DNA of 64,000 nt from contig NZ_AQPN01000063.1 of NCBI RefSeq assembly GCF_000403135.1, forward strand, positions 1 to 64,000, written 5' to 3'. Of this stretch, positions 38,113-62,620 are shown in pieces; position 1 is the first letter of the stretch; every line of letters starts with the position of its first letter. Source of the stretch: Arcticibacter svalbardensis MN12-7. GTDB taxonomy: Bacteria > Bacteroidota > Bacteroidia > Sphingobacteriales > Sphingobacteriaceae. Under the pieces are notes generated by a model. That model had not been told where the DNA came from, ran no database searches, and saw only the letters and a program-made list of their open reading frames with translations. Position numbers and translations under genes: made by a program.

Positions 38113-39036
38113 ATGAAGAAATTACTGATTGCCGATAAACTGCATCCTATATTTAAAGAAGAAGCACAAAAGTTTGGCTACCATGTGGATGACCGGCCCG
38201 AAATTACCCGGGCAGAGACGCTTGCCATCATTCACGAATATACCGGTATCGCTATTCGTACCAAATTCAATATAGATCAGGAACTTATTGATGCTGCTAC
38301 CTCAATCCAATTTATCGCTCGAGCTGGGGCAGGAATGGACAATATCAATCTTCTTGCAGCCGAAGCAAGAAACATCGTCTGTATCAATGCTCCCGAAGGA
38401 AATCAGGATGCAGTAGGTGAACATGCCATTGGCATGCTTCTTTCCTTATACGCCAATTTACGAAAGGCCGATATCGAAGTGCGTGATGGAATTTGGGACC
38501 GTGAAGGAAACAGAGGACTGGAGCTTAAAAACAAAACAGTGGGGATTATAGGATTCGGCCACATGGGACAAAGCTTTGCACATAAGCTGAGCGGTTTCGA
38601 AGTAGAGGTAATTGCCTATGATAAATATAAAAGCGGCTTTTCTAACCGCTATGCAAAGGAAGTAAGCATGGAACAAATTGTCAAACATGCCGATATCCTG
38701 AGCTTACATATTCCCTTAACCCGCGAAACACAACAAATGGTGGACGACGAATACTTGTTTCATTTTAAAAAGCCCATCATTCTACTAAACACCGCAAGAG
38801 GCGAAATTGTCAATACCGCTGCACTGCTGCGCGCTATTAAACAAGGTAAAGTACGTGGTGCTGGTTTAGATGTGTTAGAAGTAGAAAAGTTCCCGGCATT
38901 GGATGAAATAGAATGGTTTAATGAATTGAAGAAAAGCGAAAAAGTACTGCTTAGTCCTCATGTTGCCGGTTGGACGGTCGAGTCATATCGTAAAATATCT
39001 GAAGTACTCGCCGAAAAATTAAAATTGATCCGTTAA
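38113..39036 (+). CDS. D-2-hydroxyacid dehydrogenase (phosphoglycerate dehydrogenase-like)
   Basis: 307 residues, short for SerA because no C-terminal ACT domain is present. The NAD site is GIIGFGHMGQSFAHKL (about residues 144-159). Catalytic residues are Arg in LNTARGEIVNTAAL, Glu in LDVLEVEKFP, and His in LSPHVAGWTVES. It oxidises or reduces a 2-hydroxy acid; 3-phosphoglycerate, glyoxylate or hydroxypyruvate are candidates. It starts 44 bases after rsmA. Confidence 0.9.
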   Translation: MKKLLIADKLHPIFKEEAQKFGYHVDDRPEITRAETLAIIHEYTGIAIRTKFNIDQELIDAATSIQFIARAGAGMDNINLLAAEARNIVCINAPEGNQDAVGEHAIGMLLSLYANLRKADIEVRDGIWDREGNRGLELKNKTVGIIGFGHMGQSFAHKLSGFEVEVIAYDKYKSGFSNRYAKEVSMEQIVKHADILSLHIPLTRETQQMVDDEYLFHFKKPIILLNTARGEIVNTAALLRAIKQGKVRGAGLDVLEVEKFPALDEIEWFNELKKSEKVLLSPHVAGWTVESYRKISEVLAEKLKLIR

Positions 39037-44966: not shown

Positions 44967-45009
44967 TGACCGGGATCAATTTTTTATAGGCAGGTGGTAT
45001 ATACCTTTG
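44967..45009 (+). promoter_or_regulatory. Promoter of the OFA transporter with CRP/FNR-type dyad
   Basis: -7 element TACCTTTG at 45002-45009. A TGA-N6-TCA dyad lies at 44967-44978 (TGACCGGGATCA), matching the FNR/FixK core TTGAY-N4-RTCAA at seven or more positions. Its centre (44972.5) is 36.5 bases upstream of the last base of the -7 element, the position expected for a class II activator. The same spacing recurs at 46350 and 60693. Confidence 0.65.
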
Positions 45010-46349: not shown

Positions 46350-46392
46350 TGACCCGTATCATATTTATAAGTTGAAACATTAGTTAAATTTG
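46350..46392 (+). promoter_or_regulatory. Promoter of pflB with CRP/FNR-type dyad
   Basis: -7 element TAAATTTG at 46385-46392. TGACCCGTATCA (TGA-N6-TCA) occupies 46350-46361 inside a longer dyad (AATATG at 46344, CATATT at 46360-46365). Its centre, 46355.5, is 36.5 bases upstream of the end of the -7 element, exactly as at the OFA transporter promoter. The predicted leader is about 30 bases. Confidence 0.7.
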
Positions 46393-50526: not shown

Positions 50527-51894
50527 TTAAGGTTTTTTTCTATTTTTTGAATACCATTCTCTAAAAGACTCCTTTGGAGGTTCTGGCATCTCTCGTTCTT
50601 TGTACCAGGGGTTTAACTTATTACTTACCATGGAAGGGAAGTTTTTCATAAACCAACGTCCTGATTTCCCAGCTACCTCAAATACGGTAGGATTAGCAAA
50701 GGTAAAAGCCATGGCTTTCATGCTTATAGCTTTAACGGGACTCACATAACCATCCTTCACCAATACCTGACGCCATTTATAGAGCTGCTCATGGATATCA
50801 ATTTTCACAGGGCATACATTGGAGCAAGAACCGCATAATGTAGAGGCAAATGGAAGATCTGCGTAATCTTTCATGTCCAGGTTGGGTGCTAGGATCGCTC
50901 CTATCGGTCCGCTAATAGCGGTATGGTAACTGTGACCGCCACTACGGCGATATACAGGACAGGTATTCATACAAGATCCGCAACGGATACATTTCAACGA
51001 ATTACGAAAGTCTGCGCGCCCTAACTGACGGCTTCGTCCATTATCTACCAGGATAATGTGCATCTCCTGGCCTTCGCGTGGTTTCATGAAATGACTGGAG
51101 TAAGTTGTAATAGGCTGTCCGGTTGCACTTCGTGTGAGCAGGCGTAAAAAGACACCCAGGTGTTGACGTTCAGGGATAATCTTTTCTATACCCATAGAGG
51201 CAATATGCACCTCAGATAGATGGGCACCCATGTCCGCATTACCTTCATTGGTACAAACAACAAATTCCCCTGTTTCAGCTACTGCAAAATTAACTCCTGT
51301 AAGTGCTACTTTACGGGTCATGAAAGTTTCACGTAAATGTTGACGTGCCGCTTCAGTAAGTACCTGAGGATCGGATTCACCAGCTGCTGTACCTAAGAAC
51401 TCATGAAATAAGTCGCCTATTTCTTCCTTCTTTTTATGGATACAAGGCAGCACAATATGACTTGGCGCTTCATTGGCAAGCTGAACAATGCGCTCCCCTA
51501 AATCAGAATCAATTACTTCAATTCCATTGCCAGTGAGGAAATCATTTAAATGACATTCCTCGGTCAGCATCGATTTACTCTTCACCATGCGATCTACCTG
51601 ATGTTTTTTCAAGATAGATAACACGATGTCATTATGCTCCGCAGCGTTGGCAGCCCAATGGACTTTAACACCGTTTGCTTGTGCATTTAATTCAAATTGC
51701 TCCAGGTAAACACTAAGATTGGAAAGTACATTATTCTTAATCTGTGATCCTGTTTCCCTCAACCACTCCCATTCAGGAATGGTATGAACAGCCTTATCGC
51801 GTTTCTCTCTGATGAACCATAGCGTTTCATCATGCCAATCCACACGGGGTTCATCCTTATTAAATTCTTCAGATAGTTCAGCGTGATCCTTCAT
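50527..51894 (-). CDS. lutB: LutB-type iron-sulfur LUD-domain protein of lactate utilisation
   Basis: 455 residues. An N-terminal LUD domain (about 60-300; GVNFAVAETGEFVVCTNEGN) is followed by a ferredoxin-like region with two cysteine clusters (CIRCGSCMNTCPVYRR and CGSCSNVCPVKI) that bind [4Fe-4S] centres, and a basic C-terminal tail. With LutA and LutC it oxidises L-lactate to pyruvate. Its ATG overlaps the end of lutA by four bases, which indicates translational coupling. The gene is intact although lutA is not. Confidence 0.95.
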   Translation of the reverse strand: MKDHAELSEEFNKDEPRVDWHDETLWFIREKRDKAVHTIPEWEWLRETGSQIKNNVLSNLSVYLEQFELNAQANGVKVHWAANAAEHNDIVLSILKKHQVDRMVKSKSMLTEECHLNDFLTGNGIEVIDSDLGERIVQLANEAPSHIVLPCIHKKKEEIGDLFHEFLGTAAGESDPQVLTEAARQHLRETFMTRKVALTGVNFAVAETGEFVVCTNEGNADMGAHLSEVHIASMGIEKIIPERQHLGVFLRLLTRSATGQPITTYSSHFMKPREGQEMHIILVDNGRSRQLGRADFRNSLKCIRCGSCMNTCPVYRRSGGHSYHTAISGPIGAILAPNLDMKDYADLPFASTLCGSCSNVCPVKIDIHEQLYKWRQVLVKDGYVSPVKAISMKAMAFTFANPTVFEVAGKSGRWFMKNFPSMVSNKLNPWYKEREMPEPPKESFREWYSKNRKKP

Positions 51895-52624
51895 ATTCCA
51901 TTTAAAATCTCTGCGATATGCACAACTTTAACATTACTTTTTTGCCTATGCAGTATACCTTCCATATGCATAAGACAGGATAAATCGGCACTTGTAATAT
52001 ACTCGGCACCATGTTTAATATGATCGGCAACACGATCTTTGCCCATTTTAGAGGAAACCGCTTCTTCAGCCACGCAAAAGGTGCCGCCGAAACCACAGCA
52101 TTCATCTGTACGATCGAGATCTACCAGTTCCAACCCATCAACCATACTTAATAGCTGATTGGGCTTAGAGAATGCCGGAGCAACTAGTTCTGTCATCTGG
52201 GATAGATGAAGGCCCCTCAGTCCATGACAGCTCTGATGAACACCTACCCGGTAAGGAAACTTCGCATTCAGCTTTTTAACCTGTAAGATGTCAGTTAAAA
52301 CTCAACTAATTCATATACCTTTTTACGTAAGCCTTTTGCAGATTCAGGGTGTTTATCTGAATGCAGATGTTCTTTCAAATGCAAAGTACAACTGCCGGAG
52401 GGAACAACGACGTAATCGAACTCTTCAAAGAGCTCAGTAAATAAATCGTCACATCCTCCAGTGAGATGCGAAAACCCTGAATTGGCCATTGGCTGACCGC
52501 AACAAGTCTGCTTTTTAGGATACACGACATCCACGCCCAATTTCTCCAGCAACTGTAATGTTGCAATGGCTGCATTGGGGTAGAATTGATCTACGTAACA
52601 AGGAATGAATAATCCTACGGTCAT
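51891..52624 (-). pseudogene. lutA: LutA-type Fe-S oxidoreductase subunit, one-base frameshift
   Basis: Two pieces cover one gene. The first (52624 down to 52295) encodes MTVGLFIPCYVDQFYP to KKVYELVEF, with the first CCG motif (TCCGQPMANSGF). The second continues in the next frame with LTDILQVKKLNAKFPYRVGVHQSCHG and the second CCG motif (DECCGFGGTF), ending at 51891. Adding one base to the A4 run at 52297-52300 (TTTT on the coding strand) restores a 244-residue protein, the usual LutA length. The initiation codon overlaps the kinase stop (ATGA). Either a real null mutation or a sequence error. Confidence 0.9.
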
Positions 52625-53966
52625 AATACGAGTTCTGAGGCTGAATAAAAATTTAAATCAATAATATTGGTAGCTAAAGATTTACTGTTCCAATGTTTAT
52701 GTATAGCCAGCGCTGCTCCGATCGAGGTAGCCTGAGCTACGGATGCGGCAAAAACTTCCATTTCAGGAAAAGCTGATGCCAGCAATTGCATATATATCGG
52801 GTTTTTACTAAACCCTCCGTCTACAAAAATACGTTTCACATTTGTGCCTTCAAGTACCAGTTTACTGGCCTGAGTTTGCATATCATCAAATCAATAATCA
52901 ATTGATGATATGCATCTTCGGCAGAAACAAAGGTCTTCAAATCTCTGGACTCAAATCCTGAAGCTAAAAGATCTCCTGATTGTGTCGTGATATGAACATC
53001 TTGCTGTTGTTTATGTAGGCGATTTAAGCTCTCCATATTGTATTTTAATTTCTTATAAAAGTCTGCTGGTTTATTAAAGTGCTAAGATATCTTTTTTGTT
53101 TGTTGTTCATGTTCGTTTCCAGCAAAAAGCCTTGAGGCCTTAACGGGATTACCCTTATAACTGATATAACACAAACAATCTTTTTTTAATTCATCCTCTG
53201 TGAGTGGCAATTGGTTGAAAGGATTCAGACTTACACACCATGTGCCTGTAGAAAGCAGCATAAAGGGTTCCTGAAAACTGGCAAGAAAAGGAATTAACGC
53301 AGCAGAACTGTCATGTAATCCAATGCCTGCATAACGGATTTTCCATTTTTCAGGCAGGGCTGCATAAACTTTCTGTAAACTTTCTAATGTATTTTCGAAT
53401 GCTCTTTTAAAGCTTAGCTGTCCGGGGAAACAAGATCCATCAGCCAACCATACAGTTAGTGATTCAGAACCCAGATCAACACCGTACTTGATCGCTTCAA
53501 TATTATGCTCAATGGCCTGACGGCGAACTGCTTTATCCACATGTTGCATAGAGTCAAACTTATAGCTCTTTTTCTGACCGGGTTGATCTTGAAAAGTATT
53601 GGAATTCATGGCGTCGAAACGCCGGCCATGTTGAGCAGCAAGCACTTTGGTAGCCTGAATATTTTCGGGGATATCCCAGGGACTATGAAGTGAGATAGCA
53701 CCACTTGATTGATTTAACTGCTGAAGTACGCCAATATCTTCAATCTTTTCTTCCAGACTTCTTGGTTCGCCACCTCCTGAGAAACGCGCGAAACGTGTTC
53801 CTCCTGTACCAAGAGCCCAACTTGGAATAGCAATTCGAAACTTCATCAGCTTCGCTATGATATTCTCTGTACCCTCGAGATCCTGAGATAAAAATTCAGA
53901 TTTTCTTTGGTGCAATTGAGCCAATTTACTATTGTGTTCCTCAATCTGATACCTCTCAATTTTCAT
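52621..53966 (-). pseudogene. Fused remnant of L-rhamnose isomerase (5' half) and rhamnulokinase-like FGGY kinase (3' half)
   Basis: The frame from 53966 starts as a RhaI-type sugar isomerase (MKIERYQIEEHNSKL, IAIPSWALGTGGTRF, AMNSNTFQDQP, VWLADGSCFPGQ) to about residue 210. It then changes without a break into the middle of an FGGY kinase (AGIGLHDSSAALIPFLASF, LLSTGTWCVSLNPF, RLFAGNEHEQ). An in-frame TAG (53082-53084) interrupts it. The same frame continues HFNKPADFYKKLKYNMESLNR to YHQLIIDLM, where a missing base near 52884 shifts it. The rest (KRIFVDGGFSKNPIYMQLL...) is in the next frame to 52621. An internal deletion of roughly 1.4 kb is inferred. Both enzymes are lost. Confidence 0.9.
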
Positions 53967-58434: not shown

Positions 58435-59649
58435 ATGAATGATGCAACCCTTTTACATGCTATTATAGAAAATGCCATTGATGGCATTATTACGATTGAC
58501 AAAAAAGGGATTGTTGAATCCATTAACCCATCTGCTTGCCGACTATTTGGATATATTCCAGATGAAGTAATAGGCAATAATATATCCATGCTCATGGCGG
58601 AACCTGATCATTCCCGACATGATCAGTACCTACATCGTTACAATACAACAAGGGAGCGGCACATCATTGGGATAGGCAGAGAAGTAAAGGGGTTACGAAA
58701 AAACGGCACTCAGTTTCCCTTCCGCTTAGGTGTAAGCGAAGTGATTCTGTCAGACCGAACCATCTATACCGGTTTTGTTAATGATCTTAGCCGTGAAAAA
58801 GCAGCAGAGGAAAGGATTAAAAACCATGCCGCACAATTAGAAGAATTGGTAGAAGAGCGTACTGCGTCATTAAGAAAGACGGTTCGTGCATTACAGGAAG
58901 CGAAGGAAGAAGTGAGTTTATCTTTGGAAAAAGAAAAGGAATTAAGTCAGCTTAAAAGCAGGTTTGTTTCGATGGCTTCACATGAGTTCCGGACTCCATT
59001 GAGTTCGGTTCAACTATCAGCATCCCTGATAGAGAAATATTCGCAGCAGGAAGATCCAACCAATATTACCAAGCATGTAAATAAGATCAAAAATGCTGTA
59101 GGTAATTTAACCGCCATATTGAATGATTTCCTTTCCCTCGAAAAACTCGAGGCCGGACGAGTTGAACCGACTTACACACACTTTGACGTAGTCAAATTAT
59201 CGGAAGAGATTACTGAAGAGATGCAAATGATAACTAAGCAAAACCAAAATATCATTTATGAACATACGGGACTGACCAGTATGGTTATCCTGGACCAGAA
59301 TCTACTTAAAAATTGCATCATCAACTTAATTACCAATGCAATTAAATACTCCGGAGAGAACACCTTTATAGAATTTAATTCAGAAGTAACAGAAGAAGAA
59401 TACATATTAACCGTTAGGGATAATGGTATTGGCATCCCCGATGCAGATCAAAAACACTTGTTTCAACCATTTTTCCGTGCTCATAATACAGGAAATATTC
59501 CAGGTACTGGATTAGGACTTAATATTGTAAGGCGCTATGCCGGTTTAATGAACGGCAAGGTTGAGTTTGAAAGTATTATAAATAAAGGAACTACATTTAC
59601 TATATCTTTTTCTTCAAATAATGAAAAAAACATCCATTCTTATAATTGA
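58435..59649 (+). CDS. FixL-like oxygen-sensing histidine kinase with heme-PAS domain
   Basis: 404 residues. A PAS domain (about 5-120) is followed by a coiled coil (about 125-175) and a histidine kinase: DHp box FVSMASHEFRTPLSS, N box NLITNAIKYSG, G boxes DNGIGIP and GTGLGLNIV. There is no membrane segment, so it is cytoplasmic. The PAS domain keeps the heme-pocket residues of rhizobial FixL: His62 (in SRHD, heme ligand), Arg68, His76 and Arg82 (in IIGIGR). Their spacing equals that of H200, R206, H214 and R220 of Bradyrhizobium FixL. It probably senses O2 by heme. The gene overlaps its response regulator by 29 bases. Confidence 0.92.
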   Translation: MNDATLLHAIIENAIDGIITIDKKGIVESINPSACRLFGYIPDEVIGNNISMLMAEPDHSRHDQYLHRYNTTRERHIIGIGREVKGLRKNGTQFPFRLGVSEVILSDRTIYTGFVNDLSREKAAEERIKNHAAQLEELVEERTASLRKTVRALQEAKEEVSLSLEKEKELSQLKSRFVSMASHEFRTPLSSVQLSASLIEKYSQQEDPTNITKHVNKIKNAVGNLTAILNDFLSLEKLEAGRVEPTYTHFDVVKLSEEITEEMQMITKQNQNIIYEHTGLTSMVILDQNLLKNCIINLITNAIKYSGENTFIEFNSEVTEEEYILTVRDNGIGIPDADQKHLFQPFFRAHNTGNIPGTGLGLNIVRRYAGLMNGKVEFESIINKGTTFTISFSSNNEKNIHSYN

Positions 59650-60673
59650 GGATAATGATGATATCCGTGAAAGCACTACGGAGATTTTAGAACTAGCAAA
59701 CTATACTGTATTTCATGCAAACAATGGGAAAACCGGCGTGGAATTAGCTGTTAAGCACCTGCCTGATATCATTTTATGTGATATCATGATGCCGGAGCTA
59801 GACGGATACGGAGTACTGTTTATGCTAAATAAAACACCGGAAACATCAACTATCCCCTTCATATTTTTAACAGCAAAAGCAGAAAGAATTGACATGCGAA
59901 AAGGCATGGAAATGGGCGCTGATGACTATCTTACTAAACCATTTGATGACGTTGAATTACTTAACGCCATTGAAAGCAGGCTAAATAAAAGAGATAAACA
60001 AGAAGCTTTCTATAACAAATCTTTAGAAAAACTTGACAATCTGGTTGGACGGGGCGATGGTCTTGCAGAACTGCAAAAACTTGTAGCCGATCGTAAAATC
60101 AGGACTGTAAAGAAAAAACAAGTCATCTATTATGAAGGAGATAGTCCCTCAGGCCTTTATTTAATTTTAAATGGCAAGGTAAAGACATTCAAATTAAGTA
60201 ATGATGGCAGAGAGCTACTCACATCCATTTATGGGCCAGATGAGTATATTGGTGTCAATGCACTGCTTTCCAATGATGTTTATCATGAAACATCAGAAGC
60301 AGTAGAGGATACTTCCATATGCATGCTTCCAAAAGAAATGATCGATCAGCTGGTTAATCATTATCCGCAAGTAGGACGCGCCTTTATAAAAATCCTTTCA
60401 AACAATTTGAAAGAAAAGGAAGATCAGTTACTGCAACTGGCATACCATTCCGTTAGAAAAAGAATGGCTCAGGTTCTTCTCCGTCTGGCAGGAACTGACC
60501 CGGAAAAAGGTGTATTACGGATTTCCAGAGATGACCTCGCTGCGATGGCAGGAATGGCTACTGAAACAGTAAGTCGTACTTTAAGTGATTTTAAAGATGA
60601 AGGCCTGATAGAAAAAAAAGGCAGCCAGATAATCATTTTAAACGCAACAAAATTAATAAACATGAAAAACTGA
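59621..60673 (+). CDS. Response regulator fused to a CRP/FNR-type DNA-binding module
   Basis: 350 residues in three parts. Residues 1-125 are a receiver (phospho-acceptor Asp54 in ILCDIMMPELDG, Lys106 in LTKPF). Residues about 150-265 are a cyclic-nucleotide-binding-type beta barrel (KKKQVIYYEGDSPSGLYLIL), without the Cys cluster of FNR. Residues about 275-345 are a Crp winged helix with recognition helix AGMATETVSRTLSDF. In rhizobia FixJ (receiver plus LuxR helix) turns on fixK (CRP type); here the two are one protein. Target boxes are proposed at three nearby promoters. It is translationally coupled to the kinase. Confidence 0.93.
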   Translation: MKKTSILIIEDNDDIRESTTEILELANYTVFHANNGKTGVELAVKHLPDIILCDIMMPELDGYGVLFMLNKTPETSTIPFIFLTAKAERIDMRKGMEMGADDYLTKPFDDVELLNAIESRLNKRDKQEAFYNKSLEKLDNLVGRGDGLAELQKLVADRKIRTVKKKQVIYYEGDSPSGLYLILNGKVKTFKLSNDGRELLTSIYGPDEYIGVNALLSNDVYHETSEAVEDTSICMLPKEMIDQLVNHYPQVGRAFIKILSNNLKEKEDQLLQLAYHSVRKRMAQVLLRLAGTDPEKGVLRISRDDLAAMAGMATETVSRTLSDFKDEGLIEKKGSQIIILNATKLINMKN

Positions 60674-60692
60674 CCAAAGTCATTTTCTTGCC

Positions 60693-60735
60693 TGATTTCC
60701 CTCATTCCAAGTTACAACTCTCATTCTTATCTTTG
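60693..60735 (+). promoter_or_regulatory. Promoter of the LDH-like/hemN operon with CRP/FNR-type dyad
   Basis: -7 element TATCTTTG at 60728-60735. TGATTTCCCTCA (TGA-N6-TCA) lies at 60693-60704, with its centre (60698.5) exactly 36.5 bases upstream of the end of the -7 element. The same geometry is found before the OFA transporter gene and pflB. An outer CTTG/CAAG pair (60687, 60708) extends the dyad. Confidence 0.65.
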
Positions 60736-60770: not shown

Positions 60771-61253
60771 ATGAGAGCCGTAGCATACAGTATAAGGTCC
60801 TTTGAAAAGGAGCCACTGGCAAAAGCCAATCATAAGAAACACGAAATCACATTGATATCAAATGAACTTGGTATTGAAACAGCCGAATATGCTACTGGAA
60901 AAGAGGTTGTTATAATCTCTGACAAAGATAAAGTTACATTAGACGTTATAGAAAAACTTGCTGCTTTAGGAATTAAATTTATTACAAGCAGATCTTTAAC
61001 CCTTGAACATATAGATGAAAAAGCTGCTGCTTTACATGATATAAAACTTGCTTCAATATCTGTATCCAATGCAGATTCAGCGACAATGGATGCTAAATCA
61101 TTCTATTCTAAGATCGCTAATGACACCATTCACAATCTGGATTATTGGCAAAACACAAAATGCAACGGAGATAGTTGTACCATTTCACAGGATTGCGAAA
61201 GTCATATCATTGCAGGTGAGTTTCAGAGCCGAATAGATCAAAATCCTGCATAA
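60771..61253 (+). CDS. Stand-alone D-lactate-dehydrogenase-like N-terminal domain protein
   Basis: 160 residues from the ATG at 60771 (MRAVAYSIRSFEKEPLAKAN); the frame extends nine codons further but over the promoter. Residues 1-100 resemble the first (substrate) domain of D-lactate dehydrogenases (KHEITLISNELGIETAEYA, KEVVIISDKDKVTLDVIEKLAALGIKFI, HIDEKAAALHDI). No NAD-binding Rossmann domain follows: it ends with a short Cys-rich tail (CNGDSCTISQDC). It cannot be a complete dehydrogenase. It overlaps the hemN start by one base and sits downstream of a putative low-oxygen box, so a role in anaerobic physiology is inferred. Confidence 0.8.
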   Translation: MRAVAYSIRSFEKEPLAKANHKKHEITLISNELGIETAEYATGKEVVIISDKDKVTLDVIEKLAALGIKFITSRSLTLEHIDEKAAALHDIKLASISVSNADSATMDAKSFYSKIANDTIHNLDYWQNTKCNGDSCTISQDCESHIIAGEFQSRIDQNPA

Positions 61254-62620
61254 TGAACGTTGAAGACGATTTAATTAATAAATATCATGTTCCAGCACCC
61301 CGTTATACCAGTTATCCAACTGTTCCTTATTGGAATGCGGAATTTATGGGTAATGACGAATGGATTAAATCTGTCCGGTTTTCATTCGAAGAAAGCAACA
61401 CACGCGATGGAATAAGCTTGTATGTCCACTTACCATTCTGCGAAAACCTATGTACTTATTGTGGTTGCAACACCCGTATTACTAAAAATCATACTGTTGA
61501 AGAACCTTATATTCAAACCTTACTTAAAGAATGGGATTTATATAAATCTTTATTTAAGGAGAAGCCTGTAATTAAAGAAATACATTTAGGTGGAGGTACA
61601 CCTACATTTTTCAGTCCCGACAATTTAGAGCTCCTGATAAAGGGACTATTTAAAGATGCCATTATACACCAGCAAGCAGAATTTTCATTCGAAGGGCATC
61701 CTGCTAACACCACAGAGGAACATCTTAAAACATTATATAAACTTGGATTCAGAAGGGTAAGCCTGGGGATTCAGGATTTTGATCCACTGGTACAAGTTGT
61801 GATCAACCGCATGCAATCTTATGAAGACGTAAAATCAGTGACTGACCAAGCCAGGAAAATTGGCTATTTGTCGGTTAATTATGATTTAATTTATGGCCTT
61901 CCAATTCAAACACTGGAAGGTTTGGAAAAAACAATTCATAAAACGCTTTTATTAATGCCTGATAGGATTGCGTTTTATAGTTACGCTCACGTACCATGGG
62001 TTAAACCAGGACAAAGGCGTTACACAGAAAAAGATCTTCCTTCTGTTGAATTAAAGCAGAAATTATATGAGCTAGGTCGCGAAATGCTAATCAATGCAGG
62101 GTACCTGGAAATTGGCATGGATCATTTTGCATTACCTTCCGATTCCTTATATAAAGCTCAGATAGAAGGTCTTTTGCACCGAAACTTTATGGGTTATACC
62201 CATCAGTATACCCAACTGATGATTGGTCTGGGTGTGTCATCTATCAGTGATACACTTTATGCTTTCGCTCAGAATGAGAAAAAAGTAGAAGATTACAGAG
62301 CCCGTGTAGAGGCAGGACAAATACCTGTATTCAAAGGCCACCTGCTCACAAAAGAAGATTTGATCATACGTCAGCATATTCAAAACATCATGTGTAATGG
62401 CAGTACCTCCTGGCAAGATCCTAATCTTCAATGCAAGGCATTCATGGACGGATTAAAGCGTCTTAAATCGCTTGAAGAAGACGGGTTAATTACATTAGAG
62501 CCATTCAAGCTGCTTGTACTTCCTCAGGGGCAACGGTTCCTTCGTAATATATGTATGGCGCTGGATGCAAGACTATGGGCTAACCAGCCCAAAACTGTCA
62601 TGTTTAGTATGGCCGGATAA
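61253..62620 (+). CDS. hemN: Oxygen-independent coproporphyrinogen III dehydrogenase (radical SAM)
   Basis: 455 residues. It converts coproporphyrinogen III to protoporphyrinogen IX without oxygen, allowing haem synthesis at low O2. The [4Fe-4S] cysteines are Cys63, Cys67 and Cys70 with the following Cys72 (FCENLCTYCGC), and the LGGGTPTFF motif binds SAM. The N-terminal YHVPAPRYTSYPTVPYW is specific to true HemN. Start and previous stop overlap (TAATG), so the two genes form an operon, under the proposed regulator dyad. It is convergent with the cbb3 maturation genes, whose oxidase needs haem. Confidence 0.96.
   Translation: MNVEDDLINKYHVPAPRYTSYPTVPYWNAEFMGNDEWIKSVRFSFEESNTRDGISLYVHLPFCENLCTYCGCNTRITKNHTVEEPYIQTLLKEWDLYKSLFKEKPVIKEIHLGGGTPTFFSPDNLELLIKGLFKDAIIHQQAEFSFEGHPANTTEEHLKTLYKLGFRRVSLGIQDFDPLVQVVINRMQSYEDVKSVTDQARKIGYLSVNYDLIYGLPIQTLEGLEKTIHKTLLLMPDRIAFYSYAHVPWVKPGQRRYTEKDLPSVELKQKLYELGREMLINAGYLEIGMDHFALPSDSLYKAQIEGLLHRNFMGYTHQYTQLMIGLGVSSISDTLYAFAQNEKKVEDYRARVEAGQIPVFKGHLLTKEDLIIRQHIQNIMCNGSTSWQDPNLQCKAFMDGLKRLKSLEEDGLITLEPFKLLVLPQGQRFLRNICMALDARLWANQPKTVMFSMAG

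Follow-up and report, generated by a model that had tools for sequence, protein, structure and literature searches.

A gene for a protein of 160 residues that resembles D-lactate dehydrogenase (D-LDH), placed in a low-oxygen operon of Arcticibacter svalbardensis (Sphingobacteriaceae), raises the question of what such a small relative of a metabolic enzyme is and what it does. It lies in the window, the whole stretch of 64,000 nucleotides that was analyzed (Table 1). An initial annotation had described its product as looking like the N-terminal half of D-LDH, lacking an NAD-binding domain and instead ending in a Cys-rich tail, and had judged the gene not to be debris.

Table 1. Features of the gene, its product and its surroundings in the window.
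Feature	Position	Strand	Basis or remark
NAD-domain-less D-LDH-derived protein, 160 aa	60771..61253	+	ORF, Pfam, alignment of relatives, AlphaFold model, fold search
N-terminal part of substrate domain, residues 1-96, five beta/alpha units	60771..61058	+	Secondary-structure elements as in full-length relative
Linker at excision site, residues ~97-107, place of the NAD domain in full-length orthologs	61059..61091	+	
Former C-terminal helix of LDH substrate domain, residues 108-129	61092..61157	+	
Cys tail CNGDSCTISQDC, residues 131-142	61161..61196	+	Family motif CxGxxCxCx3C, third Cys lost
FixL-like sensor histidine kinase (heme-PAS, HisKA, HATPase)	58435..59649	+	PAS versus Bradyrhizobium FixL (1dp6), 7e-31
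Receiver fused to CRP/FNR-type regulator (FixJ + FixK-like, one chain, 350 aa; REC-CRP)	59621..60673	+	Response_reg 1.4e-27, cNMP_binding 1.7e-19, HTH_Crp_2 6e-19
hemN, oxygen-independent coproporphyrinogen III oxidase, translational overlap	61253..62620	+	TIGR00538 9.7e-130
FNR/FixK-type box 1 TGACCAAAGTCA	60671..60682	+	TGAN6TCA; 22-bp spacing conserved across 130 loci
FNR/FixK-type box 2 TGATTTCCCTCA	60693..60704	+	TGAN6TCA
Bacteroidota -7 promoter element TATCTTTG (TANNTTTG)	60728..60735	+	

The protein is a complete substrate domain without its NAD domain

The gene forms an uninterrupted open reading frame with an ATG start, and its stop codon overlaps the start codon of hemN (TAATG at 61251-61255), as the initial annotation had stated. 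Its product matches Pfam family PF00389 (2-Hacid_dh catalytic domain) over residues 13-104 (3.6e-8, above the curated cut-off), and its top matches in the PDB, by sequence as well as by fold, are D-LDH chains, with Foldseek aligning ~100 residues at an rmsd of 1.1-1.3 Å (E 2e-10). PF00389 and Foldseek thus agree on the presence of the flavodoxin-like substrate domain of D-2-hydroxyacid dehydrogenases. Known members of the D-LDH family include the LdhA proteins of E. coli and Pseudomonas. No NAD-domain family was matched in Pfam, and the embedded NAD(P)-binding Rossmann domain is missing both from the sequence and from the AlphaFold model, which bears out the reported absence of an NAD-binding domain. 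Likewise, no match to the receiver family Response_reg was obtained, the fold being that of the LDH substrate domain. A separate full-length D-2-hydroxyacid dehydrogenase-like protein, recognized by eye and unrelated to the operon, is encoded elsewhere in the window (38113-39036, + strand).

The NAD domain of D-LDH is inserted into the substrate domain (PMC7512555, PMC6303947), and in TP0037 D-LDH the hinges lie at residues 101/102 and 300/301 (PMC7512555). Alignment places the excised segment between positions ~98-105 and ~290-305 of the full-length form, in agreement with the hinge of TP0037 (PMC7512555). When the AlphaFold2 models of the short protein and one full-length relative are compared, the first 95 residues match strand by strand and helix by helix, with the ends of the elements shifted by at most one residue, and in the short protein the last helix comes almost directly next. 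Since residues ~108-129 correspond to the C-terminal helix of LDH in both the alignment and the AlphaFold model, the protein constitutes the entire discontinuous substrate domain, N-terminal part plus C-terminal helix, from which the NAD domain was excised in frame. The initial annotation was therefore correct in recognizing a D-LDH substrate domain, as confirmed by PF00389 and the PDB and fold matches, but the C-terminal helix rules out an N-terminal half. Structure prediction, which had been proposed as a check, agrees with a substrate domain minus the NAD domain.

The NAD domain was excised repeatedly in one operon slot

Homologs are present in 327 of 401 Sphingobacteriaceae genomes. The genera concerned are Arcticibacter, Pararcticibacter, Pedobacter, Mucilaginibacter, Sphingobacterium, Pseudopedobacter and Hufsiella, together with one Dyadobacter, and the hosts are soil and water dwellers. 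Our set of 130 nonredundant loci comprises 105 short forms (118-170 aa) and 25 full-length forms, a ratio that is no frequency estimate because the loci are best matches and hand-picked representatives. Homologs from outside the family, taken from a sample of the class, are essentially all full-length; the 18 that were examined show no Cys tail and none of the operon neighbors within the available flank, and no short form was found outside the Sphingobacteriaceae in this wider sample. One of its proteins (L235) is probably cut by the end of its contig. A scan of named genomes yielded a single short form outside the family, that of Dyadobacter bucti (L208), which has a FixL-like kinase and a REC-CRP gene upstream in changed order, contains no Cys and retains PHHAF at the old hinge. 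It was probably acquired from the Sphingobacteriaceae by transfer.

In a tree of REC-CRP and HemN from 56 loci, short and full-length forms interleave, with a minimum of 8 changes. The AU test rejects a tree that unites the short forms in a single clade (p=4.8e-7), within Mucilaginibacter as well (p=1.6e-5), which rules out a single ancient truncation. A Dollo count, in which the NAD domain is never regained, gives 7-11 losses, the range being set by the handling of weak branches. The NAD domain has been excised 7-11 times independently in the Sphingobacteriaceae, in the same operon slot; gene exchange between species could lower this number, yet not to one. The tree of the N-domain itself has few well-supported forks and tends to group its members by genus rather than by form. 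The junctions vary, with L075 and L131 retaining sequence around or before the last hinge and L077 and L130 being cut just before the helix. Homologs with an NAD domain in relatives had been named at the outset as a possible sign of a recent truncation. Other genera indeed have such homologs, but the five genus-mates searched are all short, as is most of the family, and the excision is therefore old and repeated rather than a recent accident.

The C-terminal helix is retained in each of the 105 short forms (four judged by eye). Close pairs of short forms yield dN/dS values of 0.08 and 0.10 (window versus sister species), and full-length pairs values of 0.04-0.08. The short product is under purifying selection. 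Together with the spread of homologs through the family, these values put the gene well outside what chance would produce.

Catalytic positions and the family-specific face

Among the short forms, the motifs of the catalytic Arg and Glu are found in none and that of the catalytic His in one of 105, whereas the full-length orthologs in the operon slot have kept His and Glu and, mostly, Arg. Three full-length proteins (L104, L110 and L113) lack the catalytic Arg, with NTSGA, NTCSG and NTGSG in place of NTSRG. They are probably dead enzymes that still bear the NAD domain, as expected if catalysis becomes dispensable ahead of excision. A similar contrast is seen for G77, retained in 20 of 25 full-length but only 8 of 105 short forms, and for Y/F99 (25/25 versus 12/105), while T78, D79, Y99 and S100 are conserved in full-length forms alone. 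Conversely, A5, E12, K13, E14, K22, I26-I29, N31, K44, S75, H80 and I81 are conserved in short and full-length forms but not outside the Sphingobacteriaceae. These positions fall mainly in residues 5-44 and include a family-specific face (E12-K13-E14, K22, I26-T27-L28-I29, N31 and K44); this N-terminal face, and not the tail, is the most conserved part. As judged from the alignment, substrate-contacting positions are relaxed in the short forms and the family-specific surface is maintained. Thus, while the short protein resembles D-LDH (PF00389 plus NAD domain) in the fold and sequence of its substrate domain, it lacks the NAD domain, the catalytic residues and the dimer interface, which in D-LDH is located in the NAD domain (PMC7512555).

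The Cys tail and its origin

The complete four-Cys motif, CxGxxCxCx3C, is found in 86 of 105 short forms and 19 of 25 full-length forms (for example NKCVGKACVCTKDC) and in none of the 18 homologs examined from outside the family; the window copy, CNGDSCTISQDC, has three Cys within an incomplete motif. Because full-length LDHs carry the same tail, it is no substitute for the NAD domain. The three-Cys tail noted by the initial annotation is indeed present, but it does not replace the missing domain. Judging from its distribution, the tail predates the excision and was inherited from full-length relatives. Its conservation, which had been suggested as a test, holds for the majority that have the four-Cys motif but not for 10 of the 105 short forms, in which the tail Cys are missing altogether; the tail is therefore not essential everywhere. 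Three of these ten are genus-mates of the window (L059-L061) that have retained the folded part and the operon. A redox or metal role of the tail is plausible.

The operon and its promoter

Short and full-length forms share a common slot, preceded by the FixL-like kinase and the REC-CRP fusion and followed by hemN. The kinase has the features of a FixL-type sensor by sequence, namely a heme PAS domain, in which the proximal His of the FixL motif HIIGIGR aligns, and a kinase domain (HisKA, HATPase); it is predicted to bind heme, the His of this motif being the known proximal heme ligand. The REC-CRP protein matches the Fnr/FixK families of NCBIfam. The receiver-CRP/FNR fusion is conserved across the Sphingobacteriaceae, with FixJ and FixK functions apparently combined in one chain.

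REC-CRP is encoded upstream of 91 of 102 short forms, and hemN comes after 82 of 104 short forms and 20 of 24 full-length ones, with frames that often overlap or abut. The sensor operon occurs without hemN at 17 of 101 short loci and the reverse at 6 of 101, making the association with the sensor genes a little more constant. Five short copies have neither; short copies without the sensor operon or hemN nearby include L065, L086, L158 and L181. One genome (G158) holds both the short L086 and a full-length form, L087, the latter in a normal operon. In another genome (G064), the regulator and hemN are present with no LDH gene between them, and a search of this gap for a degenerate LDH found none; the gene is therefore dispensable to the system. 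The neighbors conserved across loci uphold the earlier assignment to a low-oxygen operon and the expectation of homologs next to hemN.

The proposed regulator box ahead of the gene is also borne out. In most loci, a pair of TGAN6TCA boxes is spaced by exactly 22 bp, and TANNTTTG follows at a fixed distance: counted from where box 2 starts it is 35 bp (95 loci), and counted from where box 1 starts it is 57 bp (98 loci). At least one box is present in 128 of 130 loci, compared with a mean of 5.6 after shuffling. By this pattern, the 160-residue protein is encoded behind its own dedicated, predicted promoter, and the REC-CRP protein may be what binds the boxes. A pattern search detected the tandem arrangement at six places in the genome of the window; besides the present gene, tandem boxes stand ahead of ccoI and of a gene resembling aldehyde/alcohol dehydrogenases (both named by sequence reading). 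Single boxes with TANNTTTG exactly 35 bp on are situated upstream of two candidate members of the same low-oxygen regulon: the box at 46350-46361 precedes the gene for a pyruvate formate-lyase (46430), and that at 44967-44978 a gene for an MFS transporter (start ~45034). At 51891-53966 (- strand), frames that by eye resemble a single LutA-type and a single rhamnulokinase-type protein are in several pieces, as if broken by frameshifts or assembly errors.

A possible modulator of the oxygen sensor

The protein is a pseudoenzyme that arose when a D-LDH already bearing the Cys tail lost its NAD domain by excision. As the best explanation, we tentatively propose that it has been kept for a non-catalytic role of the full-length LDH, most likely that of a FixT-like modulator of the oxygen sensor with a thiol- or metal-binding tail. 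There is good support for a second, non-catalytic function of the full-length LDH that predates the excision and would be carried by the family-specific face and the tail. Catalysis would have been dispensable and this second function not, such that the NAD domain was lost and the rest retained. Less firmly, the function may lie in the feedback control or fine-tuning of the FixL-like sensor. The sensor's regulator appears to turn the gene on. The substrate-domain fold would then bind the kinase or the regulator, and the Cys tail could serve as a thiolate or metal (Fe-S, Cu or Zn) switch through which oxygen sets the activity or lifetime of the protein, with the outcome that hemN and cbb3 expression would be limited.

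This modulator reading is suggested by FixT, which does the same job in Caulobacter with an unrelated receiver fold: it has four Cys, carries Fe-S, inhibits FixL and limits heme overproduction (PMC7078487). Like FixT of Caulobacter and Sinorhizobium, the short protein is a small alpha/beta protein belonging to a low-oxygen circuit of the FixL/FixJ/FixK type over heme genes, encoded with a FixL-type sensor and FNR/FixK-type boxes. Caulobacter FixT has a four-Cys motif (PMC7078487); the four-Cys motif of 86 of the 105 short forms, reduced to three Cys in the window copy, is a candidate Fe-S site. However, FixT is a receiver domain without sequence relation or homology to the LDH-derived protein. 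Also at odds with a sensor modulator are the six short copies that have hemN but no kinase/regulator pair nearby, the five with neither, the ten without tail Cys and the genome whose regulator and hemN lack an LDH gene between them.

The main rival, which we consider rather unlikely, is a HemN-binding protein. It would protect, load or regulate the [4Fe-4S] cluster or the substrate of this translationally coupled enzyme at low oxygen, its Cys tail acting as donor or sensor. The frequent coupling to hemN and the tail itself would fit, as would the L070-L073 group, in which the pair with hemN is retained and the kinase is absent. Yet the sensor operon is not followed by hemN at the 17 short loci mentioned above, and three relatives (G009, G013 and G027) have hemN without any copy of the gene. 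The phylogenetic profiles of 21 relatives without the gene do not separate a kinase partner from a HemN partner. Decidedly unlikely is a role in metal or thiol handling for the low-oxygen respiratory chain, in which the tail would carry, or buffer, the copper, zinc or iron needed to assemble the cbb3 oxidase. Its C-x4-C-x-C-x3-C spacing resembles Cu(I)/Zn thiolate motifs, and in many loci cbb3 assembly genes (ccoG, FixH and ccoP) are found a short way downstream, with ccoI directly after hemN in L070 and L072; however, ten short forms have lost the tail yet retain the folded part, and conservation is highest on the N-terminal face.

The initial annotation had also considered a binding role for the former enzyme domain. 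Taken as a sensor in which the old substrate pocket binds pyruvate, lactate or another 2-oxo or 2-hydroxy acid and signals to the operon, this idea is improbable: the substrate-domain fold is intact and D53, R74 and S75 at the side of the cleft are retained, but the loss of substrate-contact and hinge positions such as G77 and Y/F99 argues against ligand binding, and most active-site residues of D-2-hydroxyacid dehydrogenases belong to the cofactor domain that is missing here (PMC6303947). Finally, a functionless, decaying remnant or a mere translational spacer for hemN is most improbable, despite the absence of catalysis, the strong divergence of L065 and L096 and the three genus-mates without tail Cys, since dN/dS values of ~0.1, the in-frame terminal helix, repeated parallel origin, the conserved dedicated promoter and operon and the presence of homologs in most genomes of the family all speak, as initially claimed, against debris, and a spacer would need no protein conservation.

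Relation to known systems and significance

Reused 2-hydroxyacid dehydrogenases and Cys-bearing FixL modulators are already known, as exemplified by CtBP and FixT. In the CtBP corepressors, the D-2-hydroxyacid dehydrogenase fold has likewise been put to regulatory use, but CtBP retains the NAD domain and requires NAD(H) to assemble (PMC6303947), whereas the short protein has no NAD domain. The surrounding operon parallels the FixL-FixJ-FixK cascade in its heme-PAS kinase, receiver, FixK-like DNA-binding domain and FNR/FixK-type boxes, except that receiver and CRP domains are joined here in one protein. Within the limited literature covered, we found no publication on an NAD-domain-less LDH protein. 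We know of no earlier case in which exactly the cofactor domain was lost repeatedly and the rest retained.

Collectively, these loci amount to a replicated natural experiment on how an enzyme is repurposed, with one domain removed 7-11 times in one operon slot and the remainder kept. They predict a hidden second function in the full-length D-LDH, for which the full-length, the dead but full-length and the short proteins provide a ready test set. If the short protein acts on the FixL-like kinase, it would exert FixT-like control by means of an unrelated protein. It is conceivable, albeit a tentative view, that a metabolic enzyme has repeatedly turned into a signaling protein by losing exactly its cofactor domain, the full-length LDH having been both an enzyme and a modulator of a FixL-type sensor with a thiol or metal tail on the modulator. 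If so, the full-length starting forms, catalytically dead full-length forms and finished pseudoenzymes would exist side by side in one family.
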